This document shows, one piece after another, positions 1 through 39,007 of a stretch of 39,007 nucleotides of DNA (position 1 is the stretch's first letter; the number at the start of each line of letters is the position of its first letter). The translations under genes and the position numbers were made by a program. The notes beneath the pieces are model-generated. The model saw only the letters and a list, made by a program, of their open reading frames with translations, had not been told where the DNA came from and ran no database searches. The stretch covers positions 1 through 39,007 of the IMG/VR virus record IMGVR_UViG_3300017989_000039; one strand, 5' to 3'. This DNA is from a virus.

Positions 1-103
1 GGAAACGATGTAAGCGATGAGCAGCCTTCCCATGCTAAACTAAAATTCGTCCCACTTGATGTGTCGATCAGAGGAAATGACGTGAGTGATGAGCAGCCGC
101 GCC
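1..103. repeat. Terminal direct repeat, left copy
   Basis: Bases 1-103 are identical to bases 38,905-39,007. One open reading frame continues in phase across the joined ends, so this is the overlap of a circular or circularly permuted genome and not a biological end repeat. It lies inside a tandem-repeat gene, which is probably why the assembly opened here. Confidence 0.95.
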
Positions 104-230
104 ATGCTTGACTAAAATTCGTCCCACTTGATGTGTCGATCAGAGGAAATGACGTGAGTGATGAGCAGCCGCGCCATGCTTGATTAAAACTCGTCACGCT
201 GGATGTGTCTATTTTATCGCTGAAGCTTGT
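1..230 (-). repeat. 72-bp tandem repeats of the LRR gene, left part
   Basis: The 72-base (24-codon) repeat array of the adhesin gene continues here from 38,322-39,007. Two neighbouring units are so alike that 73 bases are identical (39-111 against 111-183). The true copy number may therefore be higher than assembled. Confidence 0.9.
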
Positions 231-581
231 TAAGCTGCTGCATCCATAAAAACCGTTATTCACAGCATCAAACACCATCGAGCCATCAACAGCAGTCAAT
301 GCTGCTTTGTCGCCACCATTATTAAATTTGATGTTTGGAAAATCACCGGTGATGGTTACATCATAACTGCCAGCGGTCGTATATTCATGAGCAAGGTCGG
401 CATCGTTATATGCCGTAATCGCAACAGGAGATGAACCATCACCCCAATCAATTTGAGCATCAAACGTGCCGACATTTTGACAAGGGATTGTAATCGTCTG
501 CGGTGAGCTGGTCGTAGTAAAGGACAAGATCAATCCTTCGGCTCCGCGTTTCACCCCCGCGATGATTCGCCGTGCCATCAT
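1..581 (-). CDS. BspA-like leucine-rich-repeat surface protein, N-terminal part (gene crosses contig ends)
   Basis: This is the first 193 codons of a gene that continues in frame from 38,904 down to 38,139; the joined product is 448 residues. The start ATG (579-581) overlaps the stop of the upstream gene as ATGA and has GAGG about 8 bases before it. Residues 1-110 include a WGDG motif (46-49) followed by a HEY...GSYDVTITG stretch, the beta-sandwich typical of the N-terminus of BspA/DUF285-type bacterial surface proteins. From residue 118 there are 24-residue repeats of the form TSFPLIDTSSGTNF-xx-AW-xx-CSSL. There is no signal peptide, so it is probably a virion fibre or adhesin and not a secreted protein. 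The gene is visibly more AT-rich than its neighbours, suggesting separate acquisition. Receptor binding is inferred from family and position only. Confidence 0.85.
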   Translation of the reverse strand, partial: MMARRIIAGVKRGAEGLILSFTTTSSPQTITIPCQNVGTFDAQIDWGDGSSPVAITAYNDADLAHEYTTAGSYDVTITGDFPNIKFNNGGDKAALTAVDGSMVFDAVNNGFYGCSSLTSFSDKIDTSSVTSFNQAWRGCSSLTSFPLIDTSSGTNFSQAWRGCSSLTSFPLIDTSSGTNFSLAWEGCSSLTSF

Positions 582-1123
582 GCCGTCGCCCTCAACTCTG
601 CATCGGCGTGGATATTACCCGCCGGATCGGTGTAGAGCGTCAGTCGGTATAGTGCGCTGTTGGTGTCGAATGCTTCAGCAGTGCCATCGGGCCAGTACCA
701 GCCAGCAGGGACGCTCACCGTCTTTGCAGTGGCGTCCTGCGTGATGTAGATCACAGCCGAACCGCAAAGCGGAGCAGTTGGTGCGCTAGTTGTGAGTAGA
801 TCGACATCCTGGGTCAGCGTCACCTGATAGATTTTGCCATCCAGCGGAATCGTCACTGAATAGGTGCTGTCGCCGTCATCGACGACAGATAGCGTTGCGC
901 CGGTTTCGGAGTACGCATCAAGTGTTGAGTCATCAATCGTCTTGTTGGTCAGCGTGGCAGTGGCGCTGTTTTTCGTTGCGTCGGACGTGTTGTCGACGTT
1001 ATCCAACGACAAGTCGCTCTTGAGATCAGCCAGCGCACGGTACCCGAGATCGTCCGCAGTGTCTGTCCCCGTCGATCCGAGCACATGCGTCGGCGTGATA
1101 GCTTGGCGCACTTGTTTAGTCAT
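578..1123 (-). CDS. Tail/head fibre-like protein
   Basis: This is a 181-residue protein. The segment LSLDNVDNTSDATKNSATA (about residues 39-57) is a motif that recurs in phage tail-fibre shafts (LGLxNVDNTSDxxK). The rest is rich in Thr, Ser, Asp and Val with little helix potential, as in beta-structured fibres. The ATG has GGGAG upstream and overlaps the stop of the small gene before it as ATGA. Its own stop overlaps the ATG of the LRR adhesin, so the two are translationally coupled. I infer that it forms the base or partner of that adhesin. No enzymatic motif is visible. It could also be a capsid-attached fibre, since it follows the capsid gene. Confidence 0.6.
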   Translation of the reverse strand: MTKQVRQAITPTHVLGSTGTDTADDLGYRALADLKSDLSLDNVDNTSDATKNSATATLTNKTIDDSTLDAYSETGATLSVVDDGDSTYSVTIPLDGKIYQVTLTQDVDLLTTSAPTAPLCGSAVIYITQDATAKTVSVPAGWYWPDGTAEAFDTNSALYRLTLYTDPAGNIHADAELRATA

Positions 1124-1506: not shown

Positions 1507-2508
1507 TCAGTTGGTGATCAAGAAAGCCAGCGGGACGTTCTTCCGCTCAACCACACGATCCCAGGTCGCAGCAGCCTCCAGTTCCGCCAGCGTGTAGGAC
1601 GTGGCAGCAGGAGTGCCGGTGTCCTTGAAGCCGAACGGATGCAGCAGGTAGGTCTTGCGCGAGAACAGAATCTCCACGCCGCCGCCGTTGCCCTGTGCAG
1701 GCTGGCGATCCACTTCCACCGGATTGGCCGGAGTGCCTTCGCCGAAGCCGACCGCGCCAGCGCCGAAGATAACGCTGGTGTACTTGGTGCTGTACACGCT
1801 GTCAGTCTCGACCGGCAGGCCGTCGTCGACGATGACCCGATGACCGAGGAAGGTCGGGATGGTCATGTTGCCCTGGCTATCCGGGATAAAGTCAATGTCG
1901 TCGTTATCGACCATCCGCTTGTACACCACCGAGTGAACCGCAATGGCGGTCAGCTCGTCGTAGGCATCGCCCAGGGTAAAAGCAGCCGAGGTGAAGTTCG
2001 ACCGGGTGAAGCCGCTCGCGGTCGTGGCGGTATCCAGCGAAGCGTCATACACCATGTCGCCGCTGTCGTTGGCGATGTTGTCCGCCAGTACGCCGTTCAT
2101 GGTGGCGATGAGCCGACGCTGCCACTGACGCCGCCAGTAGGTGTCGGTGCGGGCACGAATGCGGGTCATTGCATCGCCGCCGAGCGCCAGTTCGGACGCC
2201 AGATCGGTCTCGGACCAGGACTGGTTCAAAAACGCCTTCCGCCCGATCTGCTCGCCCTGCACGATCTTCTGTGCGGTGGACGTGACGTTCGGATCGTCCG
2301 AGGTCAGGTTGGGAGCGACAGTGGAGTCGAGGTCTTTCCAGAACGGCAGCTCGGCGGTCTTGCCCGCAGCGGACGCGACCTGGTCGAGCAGCGCATTGCG
2401 GATGACGACGCCGGAGTCGTAGAAAGCGGTTTTCTCAGGACCGTCGACCGGAGGCAGGTCCTGGAATACGGTGACATCGATGATGTCAGAGAGTCGTACA
2501 GTAGCCAT
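1507..2508 (-). CDS. Major capsid protein
   Basis: A 333-residue protein that begins MATVRLSDIIDVTVF and ends in the region VERKNVPLAFLITN. Its length, the N-terminal VRLSDII...VF pattern, the middle segment with a Trp/Arg-rich helix (YWRRQWQRRLIATMNGVLADN, about residues 124-144) and the late GFGEG and LHPFGF turns fit the major coat protein of siphophages with DUF4055 portals. It follows the portal, MuF and scaffold genes in the canonical order. A potential sigma70 promoter and two tight hairpins lie just upstream (2,581-2,663), which would allow capsid to be made in excess of its neighbours. The HK97-like fold is inferred from family, not seen directly. Confidence 0.85.
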   Translation of the reverse strand: MATVRLSDIIDVTVFQDLPPVDGPEKTAFYDSGVVIRNALLDQVASAAGKTAELPFWKDLDSTVAPNLTSDDPNVTSTAQKIVQGEQIGRKAFLNQSWSETDLASELALGGDAMTRIRARTDTYWRRQWQRRLIATMNGVLADNIANDSGDMVYDASLDTATTASGFTRSNFTSAAFTLGDAYDELTAIAVHSVVYKRMVDNDDIDFIPDSQGNMTIPTFLGHRVIVDDGLPVETDSVYSTKYTSVIFGAGAVGFGEGTPANPVEVDRQPAQGNGGGVEILFSRKTYLLHPFGFKDTGTPAATSYTLAELEAAATWDRVVERKNVPLAFLITN

Positions 2509-4622: not shown

Positions 4623-6012
4623 TGGGCAATCCGCCCGTCTCCAGCATGTCGGCGTACTCCTCCGCTGTCCGCTCGCCGTCGAAACGCCCGATCCGCTGCA
4701 TGTAGCGCACGTAATCGCTGATCGGAATGCTGCCCTGCACGAAGCCCGCCACCATGGCCTGGATGTCCTGCGGCGTGGCGTCTGGCGACACAAAGTCCTG
4801 ATTGATCTGGTAGTCGATCGCGTCCATCTCGCCATCGCCAACGCCCATGTAGCGTCCAGCCCACTGGAGCGCCTGCGTGTAGGCTTCGGACGCATTGGCG
4901 GCGATCAGGGACAGGATCGAGTGCTGTGCTTCGCGGATACCGGCGACCTCGGTTGCTGTCTTGGCCGCACTGCCCGGCTGCATGAGCCGTGCGCCGAGTT
5001 GCAGCATCATCTCGACCTTGTCCTGCATCGCCTGGCGCACGATGCTGTTCGGTGGCGGTGCGGCGAACTGGAACTGCCCGCCTTCCGGCACAGCCAGCAG
5101 ATTGCGGCTGCCGACGTACATGCCCTGTTCTTTCAGCATCTCCAGATAGCTCTCGGTCACGCCAGACATCCACGGCTGCGCCTGGCCGACGTACCAGACC
5201 GAGTCTTCCCAGTCCGCGCTGTTGCGGTAGTGGCCGATGTTCAGATCGACCAGCGGCAGCATGACGGGCCTGTCGACCTTCGGGTCGTTGTTCTCCGCGC
5301 CCACGAAAATGAACGGGATTTCGTACCACGGCTGACCGGCTGCATCGGTCGGTGTGATCTCGTCCACCACGCGCAGTGCGCCGCCCTCGTCCGACCAATG
5401 GCGCTCTTGGTATACGCCCTCGTCGTCCAGGTACAGCTCCCGCAGCGTCATGTACTCGTCAGTCGTGTACTGGTCGGTCTTTTCGCGGTATTCGCGGATG
5501 ATGACGAACTTGAGCCGCGTCTGGCTGCCCCGCGTCTCCGTCCGCCAGTTGATGATCTGCTCAGGCTCCAGCCGCTGAATGGTGGCAACGTAGCGCCCCT
5601 CCACCATGTCGCGCATCGACACCGCGCCTTCGGTCGGTGGAAACGACACGTACAGCCCAGCCCGGCTCTTGCGGATCACGTCATCGCACAGCCCCTGGCT
5701 TTGCTGGTACAGCGAGACGCCTGCGCCGTCCGCATTGCGCTCCATGTATTCCAGCACCGTGGGCAGCGCCAGCTTCGGATCGCGCCGGAACATCGTCCCG
5801 AGCATCCCCTGCACCGTCTGCGCTGCGACAGCGTAGAAAATCGCCCGCTGCTTGTACGCCCGATTGCGGGAGCGGTTTTCTTCGCTCGTATCGTGCGGAT
5901 TCAGTTCCAGCAGGTAACTGTCGAGCATCCGCAGCCTGGTGATGTGTTCGATCTTCCGCCAGTCCGGCAGCTCGATGGCGTAGTCCTCATGCGGCGTGTC
6001 GACGTTGCTCAT
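4612..6012 (-). CDS. Portal protein (DUF4055)
   Basis: A 466-residue protein with the features of the DUF4055 portal family: an N-terminal helical region with AVAAQTVQGMLGTMFRRDP (about 62-80), a central block with ISYRAEQIINW-like content (RLEPEQIINWR, about 149-159), and a C-terminal helical stem/crown. It forms the dodecameric DNA channel at one capsid vertex and docks the terminase. Its start overlaps the stop of the last glycosyltransferase gene (ATGA), so the sugar cassette and the head genes form one transcription and translation unit. The usual terminase-portal neighbourhood is interrupted by that cassette. Confidence 0.85.
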   Translation of the reverse strand: MSNVDTPHEDYAIELPDWRKIEHITRLRMLDSYLLELNPHDTSEENRSRNRAYKQRAIFYAVAAQTVQGMLGTMFRRDPKLALPTVLEYMERNADGAGVSLYQQSQGLCDDVIRKSRAGLYVSFPPTEGAVSMRDMVEGRYVATIQRLEPEQIINWRTETRGSQTRLKFVIIREYREKTDQYTTDEYMTLRELYLDDEGVYQERHWSDEGGALRVVDEITPTDAAGQPWYEIPFIFVGAENNDPKVDRPVMLPLVDLNIGHYRNSADWEDSVWYVGQAQPWMSGVTESYLEMLKEQGMYVGSRNLLAVPEGGQFQFAAPPPNSIVRQAMQDKVEMMLQLGARLMQPGSAAKTATEVAGIREAQHSILSLIAANASEAYTQALQWAGRYMGVGDGEMDAIDYQINQDFVSPDATPQDIQAMVAGFVQGSIPISDYVRYMQRIGRFDGERTAEEYADMLETGGLPNAG

Positions 6013-6713
6013 GGCCTGCCCTCCGGATAGTACGCCTCGATGACCCTATCAATCCCGTGGCGGTGGTAGTTCCACGGCTTCGTGCTTCCATTGAAAAACA
6101 GAATCTTTGTCTGATCCCAGACTGGACGGAATCGGCGGTAATATACCACGCCGTCGTTCTTCCGAAACTTGGCCTCGTTCGGCCCCAGGATTTCAGCGTA
6201 CCACGCTTGATCGGAACCGAGATGATCCTTGCTGGCTGCGATCTGGCGTTTCGGCGTCCACTGGTCGTAGACCTGCGGTCGTGCGCCTGCTGTCATCAGC
6301 ACCATTCCGCCATTGTACGGACGATGCTCCATGCTCGATCCATTGATCACCACATCCTCCGGACGGCTCAGGATGTGATCGATATTGCCCAGGATCGCGC
6401 AGTCGATGTCCATCATCAGGAACCGCTCGCCGTAGGTCTCGGCAGCATCCGCCCGCCACATGTCGATGCGCCGATGGCACTGCGGTCGGCCCTTCGACGT
6501 CGGCCAGTTCGGATTGACCACATCCGGCCAGTCTGGCAGCGGGATAATAGCGATACCCTCATCGATCCCTTCCGGCTGATCGGTCACGCAGGAAATGCGG
6601 TGCGGCAGCGTCACGTTGCGCCGGATCATGCTGGCCCACCGGTTGACGTGTTCCGCCGTGTATTGTGCATAGCATTTCGGGTCACGCCACAGCCAGCACA
6701 GAATGTTGATCAC
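6009..6713 (-). CDS. Glycosyltransferase-like protein (DxD motif)
   Basis: Read from a GTG at 6,711-6,713 that overlaps the preceding TGA (GTGA), giving 234 residues. The sequence ERFLMMDIDCAILGNIDHI contains a DxD motif (DID) in the context typical of GT-A glycosyltransferases that bind nucleotide-sugar with a metal ion. GGMVLM and a later DQAW segment also match the GT8-like/core-GT style. It is the last gene of the sugar cassette and overlaps the portal start. Donor and acceptor cannot be deduced. A longer upstream extension of the frame is shadow sequence of the next gene. Confidence 0.7.
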   Translation of the reverse strand: MINILCWLWRDPKCYAQYTAEHVNRWASMIRRNVTLPHRISCVTDQPEGIDEGIAIIPLPDWPDVVNPNWPTSKGRPQCHRRIDMWRADAAETYGERFLMMDIDCAILGNIDHILSRPEDVVINGSSMEHRPYNGGMVLMTAGARPQVYDQWTPKRQIAASKDHLGSDQAWYAEILGPNEAKFRKNDGVVYYRRFRPVWDQTKILFFNGSTKPWNYHRHGIDRVIEAYYPEGRP

Positions 6714-7396
6714 AGGACGCGCTCCCAGTCGAAGTTTAGCCGCCGCACTGGCGGCAGGCTCGCGCCTCGGCACGGCAGGGAGCGCAGGTGGTATTGACTG
6801 CCCTTGCGCCCGTAGTCTGTCGTGCTTGCATCCGGCTGCACCTCGCGCTGGTACAGCCACAGGTCGACGTCGATTCCGCCAGCAGGACCGAGGCTGCGAT
6901 CCAGCTCCTTTCGGAATGTCGCGTCCGTCCCGTAGTAGCCACAATATCGCTCGTCGTAGCCGCCCGCCTGCCAGTAGTCGACAGCGCGAATCAGCCAGGT
7001 GTTCGGATGCGGCTTGTAGTACTGGTTGGTCGCTGCCCGGATTCGATGCGGTCGGTAGTAGCGTGCTGGCCCGCCGTCCAGGTCGATGCCCTGCAATCGC
7101 TTGGCATCTCGCGCTGGCAGCAGATGATCCATGTCAGTCAGCAGACACCAGCCGCTAGCGTGCGTCATACCGAGGTTGCGGGCACCGTTTTGATTCCAAG
7201 CCCGGTCGGTGGTGATGCGGTATAGCTCGATCTCGATGCCAACATCCCGAATGTGCGGCAGTGCCGGATCGCGCTTGCTGCAATCGTCCACCAGGATGAC
7301 GCGCCAGCAGTCTTTGCGCTCGTACCGCTCCCATTCCTCAAGGTGCAGGTCGAGCATCCCGCCATTTTCAAAGTACGCCATGACGATTGTAATCAC
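6710..7396 (-). CDS. Family 2-like glycosyltransferase
   Basis: GTG start (7,394-7,396) in a GTGA overlap with the gene before; 228 residues. The N-terminus VITIVMAYFENGGML and RVILVDDCSKRDP form the Rossmann-like nucleotide-binding half of GT2 enzymes. The segment NLGMTHASGWCLLTDMDHLLP provides the expected DxD (DMD). The second half is rich in Tyr and Trp, as in acceptor-binding regions. This is a soluble enzyme with no membrane helix. It acts with its neighbours on an unknown acceptor. GT2 membership is strongly supported by motif order, substrate is not. Confidence 0.8.
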   Translation of the reverse strand: MITIVMAYFENGGMLDLHLEEWERYERKDCWRVILVDDCSKRDPALPHIRDVGIEIELYRITTDRAWNQNGARNLGMTHASGWCLLTDMDHLLPARDAKRLQGIDLDGGPARYYRPHRIRAATNQYYKPHPNTWLIRAVDYWQAGGYDERYCGYYGTDATFRKELDRSLGPAGGIDVDLWLYQREVQPDASTTDYGRKGSQYHLRSLPCRGASLPPVRRLNFDWERVL

Positions 7397-27859: not shown

Positions 27860-28675
27860 TCACAGTTTCATGATGTAGGCAAGCGCGTAATACGGAGGAA
27901 GGTTTTTGTCGGTCCCCGACACACCCTCAGAATCAACGGTGCCAGATACCGAGTGGGTGTGCGACCCGGCGCTGTTGATGCTCAAGCTATGGCTGTGACT
28001 GCCAGCACTGTTTGTCGAGCGTGACTGCAACCCGACCCACGCGAACGTGCCACCGGGCTGAACCGTACCAGACCCGACGCCTTCGTTGATCGTGTGGCTG
28101 TGGCTGCCAGCGGTATTCGTTGAGCCTGAGTGGCTGTGGCCTCCTGCGCTGTCGGTAGACGCAGAAAACGAGTGGTCATGCGACACGACAACAGCGTCTT
28201 TGCTGCCGCCCGTCGCATCGACAGCATAGGAACTGCCCGCACCAACAACAAACCGATCCCGCAGGTCCGGTGTGCCGTTTGTGCCGTCGCACAGCGACCA
28301 TCCGTCAGGAACACTTGCAACGCTTCCTGACCACATTGTGATGATGCCCGTCGGAATTGTCTCTTGCAGCAATGCCTGCCAGTTCGTGTCCGGCGGCTCC
28401 TGCGTATTCGATCCGGTCAGTGAGATATAGAACAGACCATCGTTCCGCACCACATCGCCGATGTCGTAGCTGCCCGCTGACCAGTCGCCTTGGTACGCAT
28501 TAAACTGCACCAGCGCACCGGCCAGCGCACTATTGATCGCGCCGACGGTGGTGTTTGTTTCGCTGACCAGTGTGGATAGCGCAGCAACAAACGTGTTTGC
28601 GCGATCCGAAAAGACGGTCGGCGTGTCTGTGACCTGCGGTGCCGTCGGCAGTGCGGAAATCGTTGGGACGCTCAT
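27860..28675 (-). CDS. Tail fibre with tail-collar domain
   Basis: A 271-residue protein. GDWSAGSYDIGDVVRNDGLFY (about 64-84) resembles small carbohydrate-binding modules of the CBM5/12 type. DGWSLCDGTNGTPDLRDRFVVGAG (about 123-146) is the phage tail-collar motif. The second half has HxH elements (GGHSHSG, GSHSHTI, GSHSHSL, GSHTHSV) like those that bind iron in T4-type fibres. It is a strong candidate for a receptor- or sugar-contacting fibre. Coupled by ATGA to the gene before. Confidence 0.85.
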   Translation of the reverse strand: MSVPTISALPTAPQVTDTPTVFSDRANTFVAALSTLVSETNTTVGAINSALAGALVQFNAYQGDWSAGSYDIGDVVRNDGLFYISLTGSNTQEPPDTNWQALLQETIPTGIITMWSGSVASVPDGWSLCDGTNGTPDLRDRFVVGAGSSYAVDATGGSKDAVVVSHDHSFSASTDSAGGHSHSGSTNTAGSHSHTINEGVGSGTVQPGGTFAWVGLQSRSTNSAGSHSHSLSINSAGSHTHSVSGTVDSEGVSGTDKNLPPYYALAYIMKL

Positions 28676-29685
28676 AAGCCCTCCAGTTCAATCAAGCCGC
28701 TGGAGTTGACTTCATCCACCAGCAGAATCTCAAAGTCGGAATAATAGCCGTACAGAATCAGCTCAGTGTGTATCTGGTCCGGGCAGAATAGACACGCTTT
28801 CTCGGAGCCAATATACACCGTCGGCGTTGCGCGAACCGACGCTAGCGCCTGCTGCACCGTCGCCACTTTCGCCGTCTCAATGTAGGCTTCGACTTCCGCA
28901 CGCTTGGCGAATCGACGCTGCACGACCGTAAAATTGCCGAACGTGTCGACCTCTTTCGTGCTGAAGTCGCGGATGCCGACCGAGGTACCGTAGATGCCCA
29001 CGCCCAGCCGCTCCTGACGCCCGACCACCAGCAGTCCGACGCGGACGGTACCACCAGGCCGGGAAAAGATGACGTCAATCGTCGGCTCGAAGAATCCCGG
29101 AATGCCGAGCACGACATGATCGCGTGATGTTTCGCTGACGCCAATAACGGAGCCGAAGAACCAGCTCCACCAGTTCGACTCGCCCGCCTCAAGAACAAAT
29201 ACAACCTCTTCATCGTATGCGACGTCACCGTTCTTGCTGACGATGACGCGGATTGACGACGCATCCACATTGAACATGGCAAGCGCATTGGCGAATCCTG
29301 ACGGCTTCAACCGAATGGAAATCTGCTCGCTGTCGCTGGTCAGCGTCGAAGTACCGCCGTCGAACATTCTCCAGCGATTCGTGGCACCGAGGTCGAGCCA
29401 TTCTGTCGGACTGCTCGTCGGATCGTTACCCGTATTGTAGTCGGTCAGGCTTTCGTACCGGCGCTGTGTGCTGCCCAGCACCGTGACAATATCGCCTTCG
29501 TCGTAGGTGGTGCCCGACTCCCAGACATCCTCGCCGTAGTCGACCGGATCAACCGACGAGTACATGATGCCCTCGCCGAACACGTAAACCTGATCGCTGT
29601 TGAAGTCGAGGAAGTTCTCGCTGGCGCTGTCGATCAGCTTGTCGCCAAGTCCGGGAGAGACTTCAATCGGTCGAATGATGATCAT
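28672..29685 (-). CDS. Tail tip / baseplate-like protein
   Basis: A 337-residue protein directly after the tape measure. The region VWESGTTYDEGDIVTVLGSTQRRYESLT...PTEWLDLGATNRW (about 54-104) is a small carbohydrate-binding-like domain that recurs in phage tail-tip proteins. The middle is beta-rich. Two Cys occur near the C-terminus (ACLFCPDQ). There is no lambda J-like gene in the window, so this and the next fibre gene may make up the whole tip. Start overlaps the tape-measure stop (ATGA). Confidence 0.7.
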   Translation of the reverse strand: MIIIRPIEVSPGLGDKLIDSASENFLDFNSDQVYVFGEGIMYSSVDPVDYGEDVWESGTTYDEGDIVTVLGSTQRRYESLTDYNTGNDPTSSPTEWLDLGATNRWRMFDGGTSTLTSDSEQISIRLKPSGFANALAMFNVDASSIRVIVSKNGDVAYDEEVVFVLEAGESNWWSWFFGSVIGVSETSRDHVVLGIPGFFEPTIDVIFSRPGGTVRVGLLVVGRQERLGVGIYGTSVGIRDFSTKEVDTFGNFTVVQRRFAKRAEVEAYIETAKVATVQQALASVRATPTVYIGSEKACLFCPDQIHTELILYGYYSDFEILLVDEVNSSGLIELEGL

Positions 29686-35836: not shown

Positions 35837-36189
35837 GCCCGCACCCTCACAAAGTGCGCAAGGTCGGTGCCCGCTGGACTGCTGGTCTGCACCTCTTGAA
35901 TGGCATACGTCGCACCGTCGATCGTCACCGTATCGCTCAATCGCGGCTCGATCTCGGTGGCGCGGATGACCAGTTCGCGGTCTGTGGACTGAATCCGCGT
36001 CCCGTCGATCAGGCTGTTCGGATACCGGCGCAGTGTGCCGACGGTTTCAATCGTGGTGGTGGTCTGCGTGCTCACGCCAGTCACCGGATCGATACCGCCA
36101 CCGGTGATGCGGGTGAACGTGACCGTCTGCCCGAACCGCTCCAGCAGGTCAGACGCCACGCTTTGCATCCGATCGTAGAACGCGCTCAT
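35833..36189 (-). CDS. Head-tail connector (closure) protein
   Basis: A 118-residue beta-rich protein (QTVTFTRITGGGIDPVTGVSTQTTTTIETVGTLRRYP...) typical of head-tail closure proteins that follow the adaptor and precede gp10. Coupled by overlaps on both sides. Named by position and profile; no catalytic residues are expected. Confidence 0.7.
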   Translation of the reverse strand: MSAFYDRMQSVASDLLERFGQTVTFTRITGGGIDPVTGVSTQTTTTIETVGTLRRYPNSLIDGTRIQSTDRELVIRATEIEPRLSDTVTIDGATYAIQEVQTSSPAGTDLAHFVRVRA

Positions 36190-36659
36190 GACCGCTCCAG
36201 CACGATAGCCTGGCCACGGGTGATCTGTCGGATCAGCGCCATGGCCTGTGACTGGATGACGCGCTCGCCGACAACGGTCGGCTCGGCATACGCCACCTCG
36301 ACAGCGCCATCGACCCGCTCCCGCGTGATGTGCTGGCGGTCGGTCCTGTTGTACAGGTCAACGCCACCGTTCAGATCCAACACCAGTTCCTTCTGTACCT
36401 GCTCGACCAGCGCCGGTACGGTCTCGTCGTCCGCCTCGTAGCCGCGAATGATTGCACCAGAGCGCGGCCATGCGAGCGCCTGGTCGGCGTCGGTGCGCGT
36501 GCCTCGATACCGGCCTTCCAGCGTCTCCATGTAGTCGGTGGCCTTGATCAGCAGCACGTCGGTGGCCGCCGTATCAGCGAGCGTCACACCACGCTCCGCA
36601 GCGTAGGCAATCGCGGCAGCGCGGGTGATGTAGCTGTTCGTTCCGACTGTAATCGTCAT
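36186..36659 (-). CDS. Head-tail adaptor (DnaT-like fold family)
   Basis: A 157-residue protein from ATG 36,657-36,659 (ATGA overlap). TNSYITRAAAIAYAAERG (about 8-25) and ALLIKATDYMETLEGRYRGTRTDADQALAWPRSG (about 35-68) are the pattern of the phage DnaT-like/head-tail adaptor family, with a WPR turn. It sits on the portal and starts the connector. The frame extended to 36,980 is antisense-like sequence in the gene before and is rejected. Confidence 0.75.
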   Translation of the reverse strand: MTITVGTNSYITRAAAIAYAAERGVTLADTAATDVLLIKATDYMETLEGRYRGTRTDADQALAWPRSGAIIRGYEADDETVPALVEQVQKELVLDLNGGVDLYNRTDRQHITRERVDGAVEVAYAEPTVVGERVIQSQAMALIRQITRGQAIVLERS

Positions 36660-37213
36660 GCCCGCTGCTCCCATCGTGCCCGGAATAGGCCTTCCGCGTC
36701 CGCCGTGTTGATGCTGTTGATGCGGATATAGTACGTGCCCGCAGGGAAGCCCAGCGGCAAATCCTCGCTGGCGCTGATTTCGTTCGCCTGCGTTGCCGGG
36801 CTGCCTGCGTTCAGCAGCAGCACATCCACCACCGTTCCGCCGGTGTGCGTACCGCCAGCCGCCATGGTGACGCCAGCGGCAACGCTCGGTGCCTCGCTCA
36901 TGCCGTTGGCTGGCAGGATCGGCAGTGGCGTGCTGAAAGTACCGCCCTCGGTACCGCCGACCACAAGCTCGATGCTGCACTCGCCGAGAATCAGCACAGC
37001 GCCGAACGTCTGCACGATGGTGTCACCAGTCGCCACTACCTTGATGACCTCGGTGGCGTCCGGCGCAATGTCGAACTGCCGGAACGTGTAGAACTCGCGG
37101 CCCTCGTAGAACGCCGTTGATCCCACGTCGGTCTTCAGCCGCCGCGTACCCTGACGCTCGCTCGTCAGCATGTCTGACGGCGTTCCAGGCAGCGTGTACC
37201 AGTCAGCGACCAC
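36656..37213 (-). CDS. Hypothetical virion protein, 185 aa
   Basis: Starts with GTG (37,211-37,213) after GGGGG. Begins MVADWYTLPGTPSDMLTSERQGTRRLKTDVGSTAFYEGREFYTFRQF and then is beta-rich with many Gly/Thr residues (GGTEGGTFSTPLPILP). Similar proteins next to capsid and connector genes are described as virion decoration or minor head proteins, but I do not recognise a name. Overlaps the small gene before it by 11 bases. Confidence 0.6.
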   Translation of the reverse strand: MVADWYTLPGTPSDMLTSERQGTRRLKTDVGSTAFYEGREFYTFRQFDIAPDATEVIKVVATGDTIVQTFGAVLILGECSIELVVGGTEGGTFSTPLPILPANGMSEAPSVAAGVTMAAGGTHTGGTVVDVLLLNAGSPATQANEISASEDLPLGFPAGTYYIRINSINTADAEGLFRARWEQRA

Positions 37214-37346
37214 GATAGCCCCCAGCGCGGATAGCGCGGCCCTGGCGTTCAGCCTTCGCCTTGGCTCCCGGCCCGGTGTAGCAGGCTCCAGACTGGCCCC
37301 ACTTCCAGCCGCGCTTTCCGCCCTTCTGGCATCGCTGTGCAGGCAT
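37203..37346 (-). CDS. Small conserved phage Cys/Trp protein, 47 aa
   Basis: The pattern MPAQRCQKGGKRGWKWGQSGACYTGPGAKAKAERQGRAI is recognisable as a small phage protein found repeatedly in other genomes (x-RCxKxGKxGWKWGxSGxCYTGxxAKxKAxxQGxAI). Two Cys residues and basic tail; possibly a mini zinc or nucleic-acid-binding fold. Start and stop overlap both neighbours (TAATG before it). Function unknown. Confidence 0.7.
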   Translation of the reverse strand: MPAQRCQKGGKRGWKWGQSGACYTGPGAKAKAERQGRAIRAGGYRGR

Positions 37347-37642
37347 TAGTCAATCGGGCTAGGCCCGTCCTCCCTGCTGGTGGCTCCAACGCAGTGCCAA
37401 TCCGCACGCGCCAGATCATTCGGTGTCAGTCGATCCCGAGCGCCGGATGCAATGCCAGCGGATCGAGCGCAATACGCATTGCCAGCCTCGGTGCCAGGCC
37501 TGACGGTTGCGCCCTCTTGGCCGAAGTTGATCACGCGGCCCTCGGCAGTGACCGCAGCCTTTTTCTTGCCCTGTGCGTTGCTGGAGCGGATCGTGACGAT
37601 CTGGCCCTTGATCCGGTAACGCTTGCCGATTTCGAGTGGCAT
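37346..37642 (-). CDS. Hypothetical protein, 98 aa
   Basis: Starts at ATG 37,640-37,642 in a TAATG overlap with the gene before and ends in another TAATG. The N-terminal half (MPLEIGKRYRIKGQIVTIRSSNAQGKKKAAVTAEGRVINFGQEG) reads like a KOW/SH3-type beta barrel. The C-terminus has two Cys. Located between fibre-related and connector genes. Family not recognised. Confidence 0.6.
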   Translation of the reverse strand: MPLEIGKRYRIKGQIVTIRSSNAQGKKKAAVTAEGRVINFGQEGATVRPGTEAGNAYCARSAGIASGARDRLTPNDLARADWHCVGATSREDGPSPID

Positions 37643-38139
37643 TAGGATTGCTCCGGGTCTAATGGCGACTCGATCCCGAACAGCGCGTCCATCTGCTCGT
37701 CAGTGTAGCCCATCGCCTCACCAAGCTGAATCAGGTCTGGGTGCATCCGATCAAACGTGCTGCTGTCATCCCACATGATCTGGATGTTCCGAGGCCACGA
37801 TGGATACGCGGCTTCGATGTCGTCAAGGTACCCTGCGGCGAGAAGCGCCAATTTGAACTGCGCCCGAGAAAGACTGGCGGCAGCGCGTTGGTTTTCCTTT
37901 CGAGCAACCTCGCGCTCTTCTGGAGTGCCAGCCGGTTTGCGGGTGTATTGGGTTCCGTCGAATTGCCAGTCGGTATAGCCGAGCGGCGCATCGCCTGATG
38001 CCGTGACGTGCGGATAGATGCCAAGCACTGCGAGCGCGGCTGTGTCTTCGCGCTTGATCAGCGGCGCTGTCGGGGTCAGCATCCCGTCATGCTGGACGTG
38101 GCGCGGCGGGGTTTTGTGAGATTGGGTAAGATATTTCAT
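37642..38139 (-). CDS. Hypothetical tail-fibre-associated protein, 165 aa
   Basis: ATG 38,137-38,139 overlaps the LRR gene stop (TAATG), with GGAG about 10 bases before it; an in-frame ATG at 38,172 is inside the LRR gene and is rejected. The C-terminal half contains LSRAQFKLALLAAGYLDDIEAAYPSWPRNIQIMWDDSSTFDRMHPDLIQLGEAMG, a pattern common in small phage proteins beside tail fibres. It could be a chaperone for the adhesin. Compositionally AT-richer at its start, like the LRR gene. Confidence 0.65.
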   Translation of the reverse strand: MKYLTQSHKTPPRHVQHDGMLTPTAPLIKREDTAALAVLGIYPHVTASGDAPLGYTDWQFDGTQYTRKPAGTPEEREVARKENQRAAASLSRAQFKLALLAAGYLDDIEAAYPSWPRNIQIMWDDSSTFDRMHPDLIQLGEAMGYTDEQMDALFGIESPLDPEQS

Positions 38140-39007
38140 TATTGCGCCACTCCGTTTAATGTGATTGTCCACCCGCGAGACTTAAGATTCGTAACCGCTG
38201 TCGATACCGATGGCGTACCCGTGCCTGCGTCATAATCGATTGTGATGTCAACGCCAGAAGCAGGGGCAGACTGACCTGATGTGTCAAGGCTATTTAGGAT
38301 GTTCTCTACCGATGTGGCGGTGAGTGATGAACAACCGTCCCATGCGTTTACGAAACAGTTATCGACAGGTGTACCTGTCCAGCTATCAAAGAAGTTAGCT
38401 GGGAAAGATGTAAGCGATGAGCAGTTGCGCCATGCTGCCTGAAAATACGTCCCACTGGATGTGTTAATTAGAGGGAATGATGTGAGTGAGGTGCAGTTGA
38501 GCCATGTTTCTTTAAAATTCGTCCCACTGGATGTGTTAATCAGAGGAAACGATGTGAGAGAGGAGCAGCCGTCCCATGCTTGAACAAAATTCGTCCCGCT
38601 GGATGTGTTAATCAGAGGAAAAGATGTGAGTGACGAGCAGTCGCCCCATGCTAAACTAAAATTCGTCCCACTTGATGTGTCGATCAGAGGAAACGATGTG
38701 AGTGACGAGCAGGCTAGCCATGCTCGACTAAAATTCGTCACGCTGGATGTGTCTAGCAGAGGGAAAGAGGTGAGTGAGGTGCAATTGCGCCATGTTTCTG
38801 TAAAATTCGTCCCGCTGGAGGTGTCGATTAGAGGAAATGACGTGAGTGAGGTGCAATTGCGCCATGCAAAAGAAAAACTCGTCCCGCTGGAGGTGTCGAT
38901 CAGTGGAAACGATGTAAGCGATGAGCAGCCTTCCCATGCTAAACTAAAATTCGTCCCACTTGATGTGTCGATCAGAGGAAATGACGTGAGTGATGAGCAG
39001 CCGCGCC
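38139..39007 (-). CDS. BspA-like leucine-rich-repeat surface protein, C-terminal part (joins 1-581)
   Basis: Continuation of the gene that starts at 581; unique sequence is 38,139-38,904. Read from 38,906 it keeps the same frame as the left part. It carries most of the 24-residue repeats: nine regular units in the joined product, one longer variant at each end. The last repeat (TSFPANFFDSWTGTPVDNCFVNAWDGCSSL) is followed by a 60-residue non-repeat C-terminal cap ending in LNGVAQ. Variable positions are the pair before AW and the pair before C, for example SQ-AW-RG, SL-AW-EG, SF-AW-RN, TE-TW-RN, KE-TW-LN. The remaining residues are nearly fixed. Confidence 0.85.
   Translation of the reverse strand, partial: RGCSSLTSFPLIDTSSGTNFSLAWEGCSSLTSFPLIDTSSGTSFSFAWRNCTSLTSFPLIDTSSGTNFTETWRNCTSLTSFPLLDTSSVTNFSRAWLACSSLTSFPLIDTSSGTNFSLAWGDCSSLTSFPLINTSSGTNFVQAWDGCSSLTSFPLINTSSGTNFKETWLNCTSLTSFPLINTSSGTYFQAAWRNCSSLTSFPANFFDSWTGTPVDNCFVNAWDGCSSLTATSVENILNSLDTSGQSAPASGVDITIDYDAGTGTPSVSTAVTNLKSRGWTITLNGVAQ
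38322..39007 (-). repeat. 72-bp tandem repeats of the LRR gene, right part
   Basis: Main portion of the 24-codon repeat array. Units are recognisable by the recurring plus-strand sequence TCGTCCC-CTGGA/T-GTG before a variable block. The repeats are AT-rich compared with the rest of the genome. Joined to 1-230, about eleven units in total; copy number is uncertain because of assembly in near-identical repeats. Confidence 0.9.
38905..39007. repeat. Terminal direct repeat, right copy
   Basis: Identical to bases 1-103; see the left copy. The right copy is redundant for gene counting. Confidence 0.95.

Follow-up and report, generated by a model that had tools for sequence, protein, structure and literature searches.

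The window analysed is a phage contig of 39,007 nucleotides from IMG/VR, whose bases 1-103 are identical to bases 38905-39007. This exact 103-bp overlap of the contig ends lies inside a repeat array, and the contig thus closes to 38,904 bp. On the minus strand, an open reading frame running from 581 to 1 is extended in frame by 38904 to 38139, which makes a protein of 448 residues plus stop, called here the adhesin. The join matches the gene order of relatives, in which the genes of the major capsid protein (MCP), g98 and the connector are contiguous. Since overlap, in-frame join and gene order agree, the original prediction of a single 448-residue protein split by the contig ends is upheld.

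The adhesin is composed of: (i) a PKD-like N-terminal region; (ii) eleven leucine-rich-repeat (LRR) units; (iii) a C-terminal cap. The 5' part of the gene (1-581, minus strand, ATG at 581-579) encodes the PKD-like domain and the first repeats, the 3' part (38139-39007, minus strand) the remaining array and the cap. The array occupies 1-242 and, in 72-bp units, 38322-38904 (both minus strand); one unit has 25 residues, nine have exactly 24 and one has 30, after which comes the cap. About eleven BspA-like repeats had been announced: eleven units are counted, and an LRR protein of BspA-like type is supported. The cap (38139-38321, minus strand) comprises a helix and strands in the structural model and matches phrog_34853, a family of unknown function whose profile matches the adhesin over five stretches (E=3.5e-56).

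The PKD-like motif region (residues 39-78; 348-467, minus strand) reads WGDG...HEY...G.Y.V.I. WGDG and H-Y motifs are present, and the PKD_4 match (E=0.0053) lies below the cut-off (17.2 bits vs. 27); the relative L120 is likewise below the cut-offs (20.6 bits for PKD_4, 19.8 bits for PKD). The motif region is kept in L009, L013, L120, L229, L230, L233 and L234. By inspection, the adhesin has no evident signal peptide.

The capsid-connector slot

The adhesin gene is the middle one of a three-gene cassette, g181-adhesin-g176, situated between the capsid and connector genes. Its upstream neighbour is the MCP gene (1507-2508, minus strand; phrog_247, E=4e-104). Downstream are g98 (37346-37642, minus strand), a small conserved gene which sister phages devoid of the cassette have immediately after the MCP region, and the head-tail adaptor Ad1 (36186-36980, minus strand; phrog_477, E=1.4e-34), which marks the downstream edge of the slot. 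Within the cassette, g181 (578-1123, minus strand) is weakly similar to tail-fibre families (phrog_35419 and phrog_4549 «tail fiber protein», E around 1e-3; phrog_3030, E=1.3e-7) and is a possible fibre or anchor subunit; a search for its homologues elsewhere gave only short local matches, at 12 loci. g176 (37642-38139, minus strand) matches phrog_6034, of unknown function (E=1.6e-14), and possibly plays a role in assembly or as a chaperone, a weak assignment. The adhesin start codon overlaps the g181 stop (ATGA) and the g176 start overlaps the adhesin stop (TAATG), thus the cassette genes are probably co-translated.

Two sister phages, L014 and L015, have a capsid protein 96% identical to that of the window phage and nearly the same neighbours. 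Only about 340 bp separate their capsid gene from g98, and g181, adhesin and g176 are absent; no recognisable copies of the cassette genes were found in more distant relatives either. The GC content of the adhesin gene is 48.2% vs. 60.9% for the genome (57% for g181, 59% for g176). Absence from the sisters and low GC content indicate that the adhesin gene was probably gained recently, in agreement with the acquisition first proposed from its AT-richness.

The window phage also has ordinary tail genes, among them a tail collar fibre gene at 27860-28675. Beside this gene and the tape measure gene, 28672-29685 has a weak match to a carbohydrate-binding module (CBM_5_12, E=5e-4, below cut-off). 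A glycosyltransferase-like gene (6009-6944; phrog_1962, moron class) adjoins the portal gene.

In relatives, the capsid-connector interval is a slot for accessory genes. It contains members of the virion structural family phrog_1645, phrog_13935 proteins and, in some relatives and by inspection, glycosyltransferase-like genes; in L040 and L043 it holds virion structural proteins. It must be noticed that several slot proteins (among L040:3414-4718, L043:1431-2693, L046:1339-1938, L050:6239-6790, L021:6632-7384 and L024:8662-9276) share a motif of the type GPSDLL or PGxPSDLL at the N-terminus. When 112 neighbours of adhesin homologues were scanned, the recognisable ones were mostly tail, tail-fibre, head, packaging and lysis genes; the homologue of Synechococcus phage S-SKS1 adjoins the prohead protease and the MCP.

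From gene context, domains and homologues we infer that the protein is displayed on the virion and has a binding function, hence its name. It could instead be made in the cell, as a host-surface, exclusion or anti-defence moron, since morons typically have a low GC content and were inserted recently, and PKD-LRR proteins of cells occur in Planctomycetota. We regard this as improbable: the genes overlap, are probably co-translated and lie within a structural operon, relatives fill the same slot with virion structural genes, homologues adjoin tail and head genes, and inspection revealed no evident signal peptide.

Predicted fold and variable columns

The array plus cap (288 residues), modelled with AlphaFold2 from 34 sequences, is a predicted LRR solenoid (pLDDT 93.4, pTM 0.89). 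The VIA Z values are 18.6 to the LRR of plant RPP1 (rmsd 2.7, 259 aligned), 18.2 to the BspA-like 4fs7 (rmsd 3.0, 252 aligned) and 15.9 to the hagfish variable lymphocyte receptor (VLR) A29. Sequence matches were also obtained with RPP1 (E=9e-12) and, weakly, with VLR O13 (E=0.0043). The best match among viral models is M4QPG4, the PKD-LRR protein SWZG_00142 of phage S-SKS1. The model of the N-terminal 193 residues is a beta-rich domain (pLDDT 86).

Variation gathers in unit columns 19, 20, 23 and 24, i.e., in F-xx-AW-xx-C. The variable pairs named in the original prediction are all correct, except that the first one strictly stands before Ala/Thr-Trp. That variable sites are restricted is borne out by the counts: of the differences between units of the window, the four columns account for 71% of the non-synonymous but 17% of the synonymous ones, and no other of the 10,626 possible four-column sets ranks higher. 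For the backbone of these units, pN is 0.051 and pS 0.385 (pN/pS 0.13). With pS so high and pN low, the scaffold is under purifying selection and not freshly copied; simple recent duplication of units is ruled out by the high synonymous divergence between them. At the variable columns, pN (0.60) exceeds pS (0.44). Over four disjoint pairs of units, N:S is about 19:5 in the variable columns vs. 7:18 in the backbone (Fisher p=5e-4).

In order to avoid circularity, the columns were re-derived from 55 non-redundant phage relatives (351 units), the window being left out. Columns 19, 20, 23 and 24 are again the most variable, while W22, C1, F18, F7, P8 and L4 are near-invariant. Each of the 55 proteins has a higher pN at the variable columns than across its backbone (median ratio 4.5). 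Pooled over the relatives, the variable columns have a pN of 0.57, at 85% of the random-codon value, and a pS of 0.49, at only 60% of the random pS. These values point to diversifying selection at the variable columns of the relatives, a reading weakened by saturation: synonymous sites of the array are partly saturated, thus pN > pS is no strict proof of positive selection. The other polar positions of the unit (Thr, Ser and Asp) are conserved.

In the alignments with RPP1 and VLR, F-xx-AW-xx-C falls on the LRR strand motif LxxLxLxxC/N. This register suggests that the variable residues would lie on the concave face; the usual BspA register would place them elsewhere. A location on one face of the solenoid, as first proposed, would fit the predicted LRR model.

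Variation restricted to fixed positions of a surface protein could also be made by a diversity-generating retroelement (DGR), and one of the 50 array-bearing contigs of relatives, L125, does have one. The original prediction had excluded a DGR because no reverse transcriptase was seen, and this holds: the window record gave no RVT_1 match and no separate copy of the array that could be a template repeat, and its variable codons (including CGC, GGC, CTC, GTT and CAG) are not restricted by adenine. Reverse transcriptase is missing from the other 49 array-bearing contigs, many of which are fragments. The DGR of L125 has a reverse transcriptase, a template repeat and an Mtd-like variable protein; 18 of the 20 changes between template and variable repeats are at A, and the target is this separate Mtd-like gene, not the array. 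The probability that a DGR makes the variation is therefore practically nil, and it was rejected as its source: the window has no reverse transcriptase and that of L125 serves another gene. In L125 the LRR-array gene is located 2.4 kb downstream of the DGR, so that two routes of diversification stand side by side (coordinates concerned: 25-864, 725-845, 1256-1376, 1530-2513 and 4965-7103).

Array composition among near-identical phages

The clearest case comes from two cultured Nonlabens phages, P12024S (L239) and P12024L (L240), whose compared genes show 96.9-100% identity. Their gene 10, a putative tail fibre gene (L239 6549-8216; L240 6549-8147), is identical over the first 690 nt, beyond which as many as 26 of 69 bases are different; exactly one 69-nt unit was gained or lost and every variable pair differs. 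Both phages carry ERF and YqaJ recombination genes. They differ in some accessory genes too.

In metagenomic relatives, too, the array changes much faster than its flanks. For L120 and L167, identity is 99.7% in the 2.5 kb upstream, still 98.8% in the N-terminal part and 85.8% in the array, with 6-17 mismatches per 72 bases. Between them, pN and pS are 0.57 and 0.25 at the variable columns, 0.055 and 0.15 in the backbone (Fisher p=2e-5). L167 has units that L120 lacks; its alternating GY/GL units are duplicated, which is a sign of unit duplication, and one of them is identical to an L120 unit at 71 of 72 positions. L209 has an additional three-unit block with reference to L120 and one unit missing. 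All 14 differences between the compared sequences of L010 and L012 fall in 108 bp of the array, the remaining ~3.3 kb being free of them, and L011 is identical to L010 over 3.7 kb; a search within the array found no perfect donor for gene conversion between L010 and L012. The pairs L180/L212 and L203/L214 also diverge more in the array than in the flanks. On the contrary, arrays are identical within other near-identical sets (L100/L182, L137/L169, L144/L166/L204, L188/L208 and the L168 group), which may come from one site sampled more than once. A fixed array among relatives, which according to the original prediction would have spoken against it, is thus not the general case.

Such differences could be chimeras made by short-read assembly of repeats: both assemblies of the window phage break inside the array, and L010, L012 and L209 are metagenomic contigs. 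The clonal isolate genomes P12024S and P12024L behave alike, however, and this pair removes metagenome assembly as a general explanation; moreover, L167 has units not present in L120 and the column pattern is common to the 55 non-redundant proteins. Chimeras are thus given very little credence, less than a cellular moron.

For the window phage itself, the only other copy, L006, shows 1 difference in 4,540 bp and none in the part of the array it covers; a search with a 30-base exact pattern gave no further copies. The proposal that recombination between repeats reshuffles them is therefore supported in relatives, including the two cultured isolates, but not in the window phage. The sequences of L006 and of the window break off at one and the same base of the array, and no exact repeat of at least 76 bp was found in the closed contig. 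This shared stop suggests a hidden array variant or additional units in the source sample, thus the count of eleven units is provisional. The window phage also encodes a PD-(D/E)XK exonuclease and a single-strand binding protein. Recombination as the engine of diversity, and turnover of the window phage's own array, are what we infer from these comparisons.

The variable columns may be merely exposed and unconstrained, i.e., the protein would be a spacer or stiff fibre that drifts neutrally and the gain and loss of units tandem-repeat noise. Exposed positions of repeat proteins do drift, the pooled pN of the relatives is not far above their pS, and Roske et al. 2010 (PMC2996958) count neutral accrual among the options for PARCEL repeats. 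Nevertheless, pN exceeds pS at the variable columns of the window and is 2.2 times pS in L120/L167; non-synonymous change is nearer saturation than synonymous change, the other polar positions are conserved, and near-identical phages have whole arrays replaced. Neutral drift is thus rather unlikely, although less so than the other alternatives.

It is probable, on balance, that the adhesin is a binding protein displayed on the virion and owes its diversity to units being duplicated, lost and exchanged, together with diversifying selection and with no reverse transcriptase. In detail, the three-gene cassette would have been gained recently at the accessory slot between capsid and connector genes. 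The protein would sit on the virion as a head fibre or decoration, or as a side fibre, tethered by the PKD domain, probably with g181. The LRR solenoid would offer four variable residues per repeat, i.e., a modular ligand-binding surface. The 72-bp units would be duplicated, lost and exchanged through ordinary homologous recombination, diversifying selection would then act on the four columns while purifying selection holds the backbone, and reverse transcriptase would play no part.

Relation to known families and systems

Accounts of how phages diversify their receptors in a targeted way centre mostly on DGRs, phase variation and swaps of tail-fibre genes. What appears new here is a phage LRR adhesin family whose diversification would be independent of reverse transcriptase and restricted to columns. 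A literature search, of incomplete coverage, returned no account of fixed hypervariable columns or of LRR array turnover in phages.

The nearest described family is PARCEL/DUF285/TIGR02167, for which conserved hydrophobic and variable polar positions, variable numbers of units and horizontal spread have already been noted (PMC2996958); phage is mentioned only once in that paper, in a reference title. Both families have tandem LRR-like units, a hydrophobic backbone that is kept, variable polar positions, a variable number of units and horizontal spread, whereas the adhesin unit has 24 residues with Trp and Cys and the canonical PARCEL unit 25. The adhesin is below the curated cut-offs (20.8 bits vs. 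25 for DUF285, 15.6 bits vs. 30 for TIGR02167). Its array contains only two 9-nt quasi-palindromes, none repeat-wide, as found by a method other than the MEME of the PARCEL paper. L013 has a PKD domain as in the adhesin and passes the TIGR02167 cut-off; it thus links the two and makes the adhesin and the PARCEL/TIGR02167 family relatives.

Among phages, S-SKS1 SWZG_00142, S-CBWM1 gp93 and P12024S/L gp10 have the same LRR type and cap as the adhesin, and the S-SKS1 protein also has a PKD domain. Phage members of the family are annotated as BspA, PKD or tail-fibre-like; of the homologues just cited, two have a tail or tail-fibre-like annotation, all functions being putative. Virion proteomics of S-CBWM1 reportedly exists.

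Three other systems can be compared. (i) The VLR of lamprey and hagfish, like the adhesin, combine an LRR solenoid as fixed scaffold with few hypervariable positions per unit; the adhesin has no somatic assembly and varies between phage lineages, thus homology is that of LRRs only and function is compared by analogy. (ii) DGR variable proteins of Mtd type are, as the adhesin would be, phage surface proteins with hypervariable residues at fixed places, but the adhesin record has neither reverse transcriptase nor adenine restriction. (iii) T4 Hoc (PMC10385173) is, as the adhesin would be, an accessory virion protein with an Ig/PKD-like domain and a variable binding part; Hoc is a string of Ig domains whereas the binding part of the adhesin is an LRR and its attachment to the capsid is putative.

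One short pattern of the array has at least 118 stretches in IMG/VR vs. 9 loci in 84,980 prokaryote species genomes, and the array family is thus widespread in environmental phages. Tentatively, and with less confidence than the mechanism proposed above, this large and mainly phage-borne family of LRR binders could be a VLR-like diversification system free of reverse transcriptase: specificity would reside in four columns per 24-residue unit, arrays would be re-composed among near-identical phages, and recognition of the host or another surface would be changed. If so, receptors would be diversified by another general route, in which an LRR scaffold keeps its variable columns fixed and turns its units over rapidly. 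P12024S and P12024L, which were cultured on one host and differ in their array, offer a direct test system.

Cellular relatives of the phage adhesin are also found: L229:3994-9420 and L230:799-7641 encode very large Planctomycetota proteins with repeated blocks of PKD and LRR array (open frames of 1,808 and 2,280 residues).
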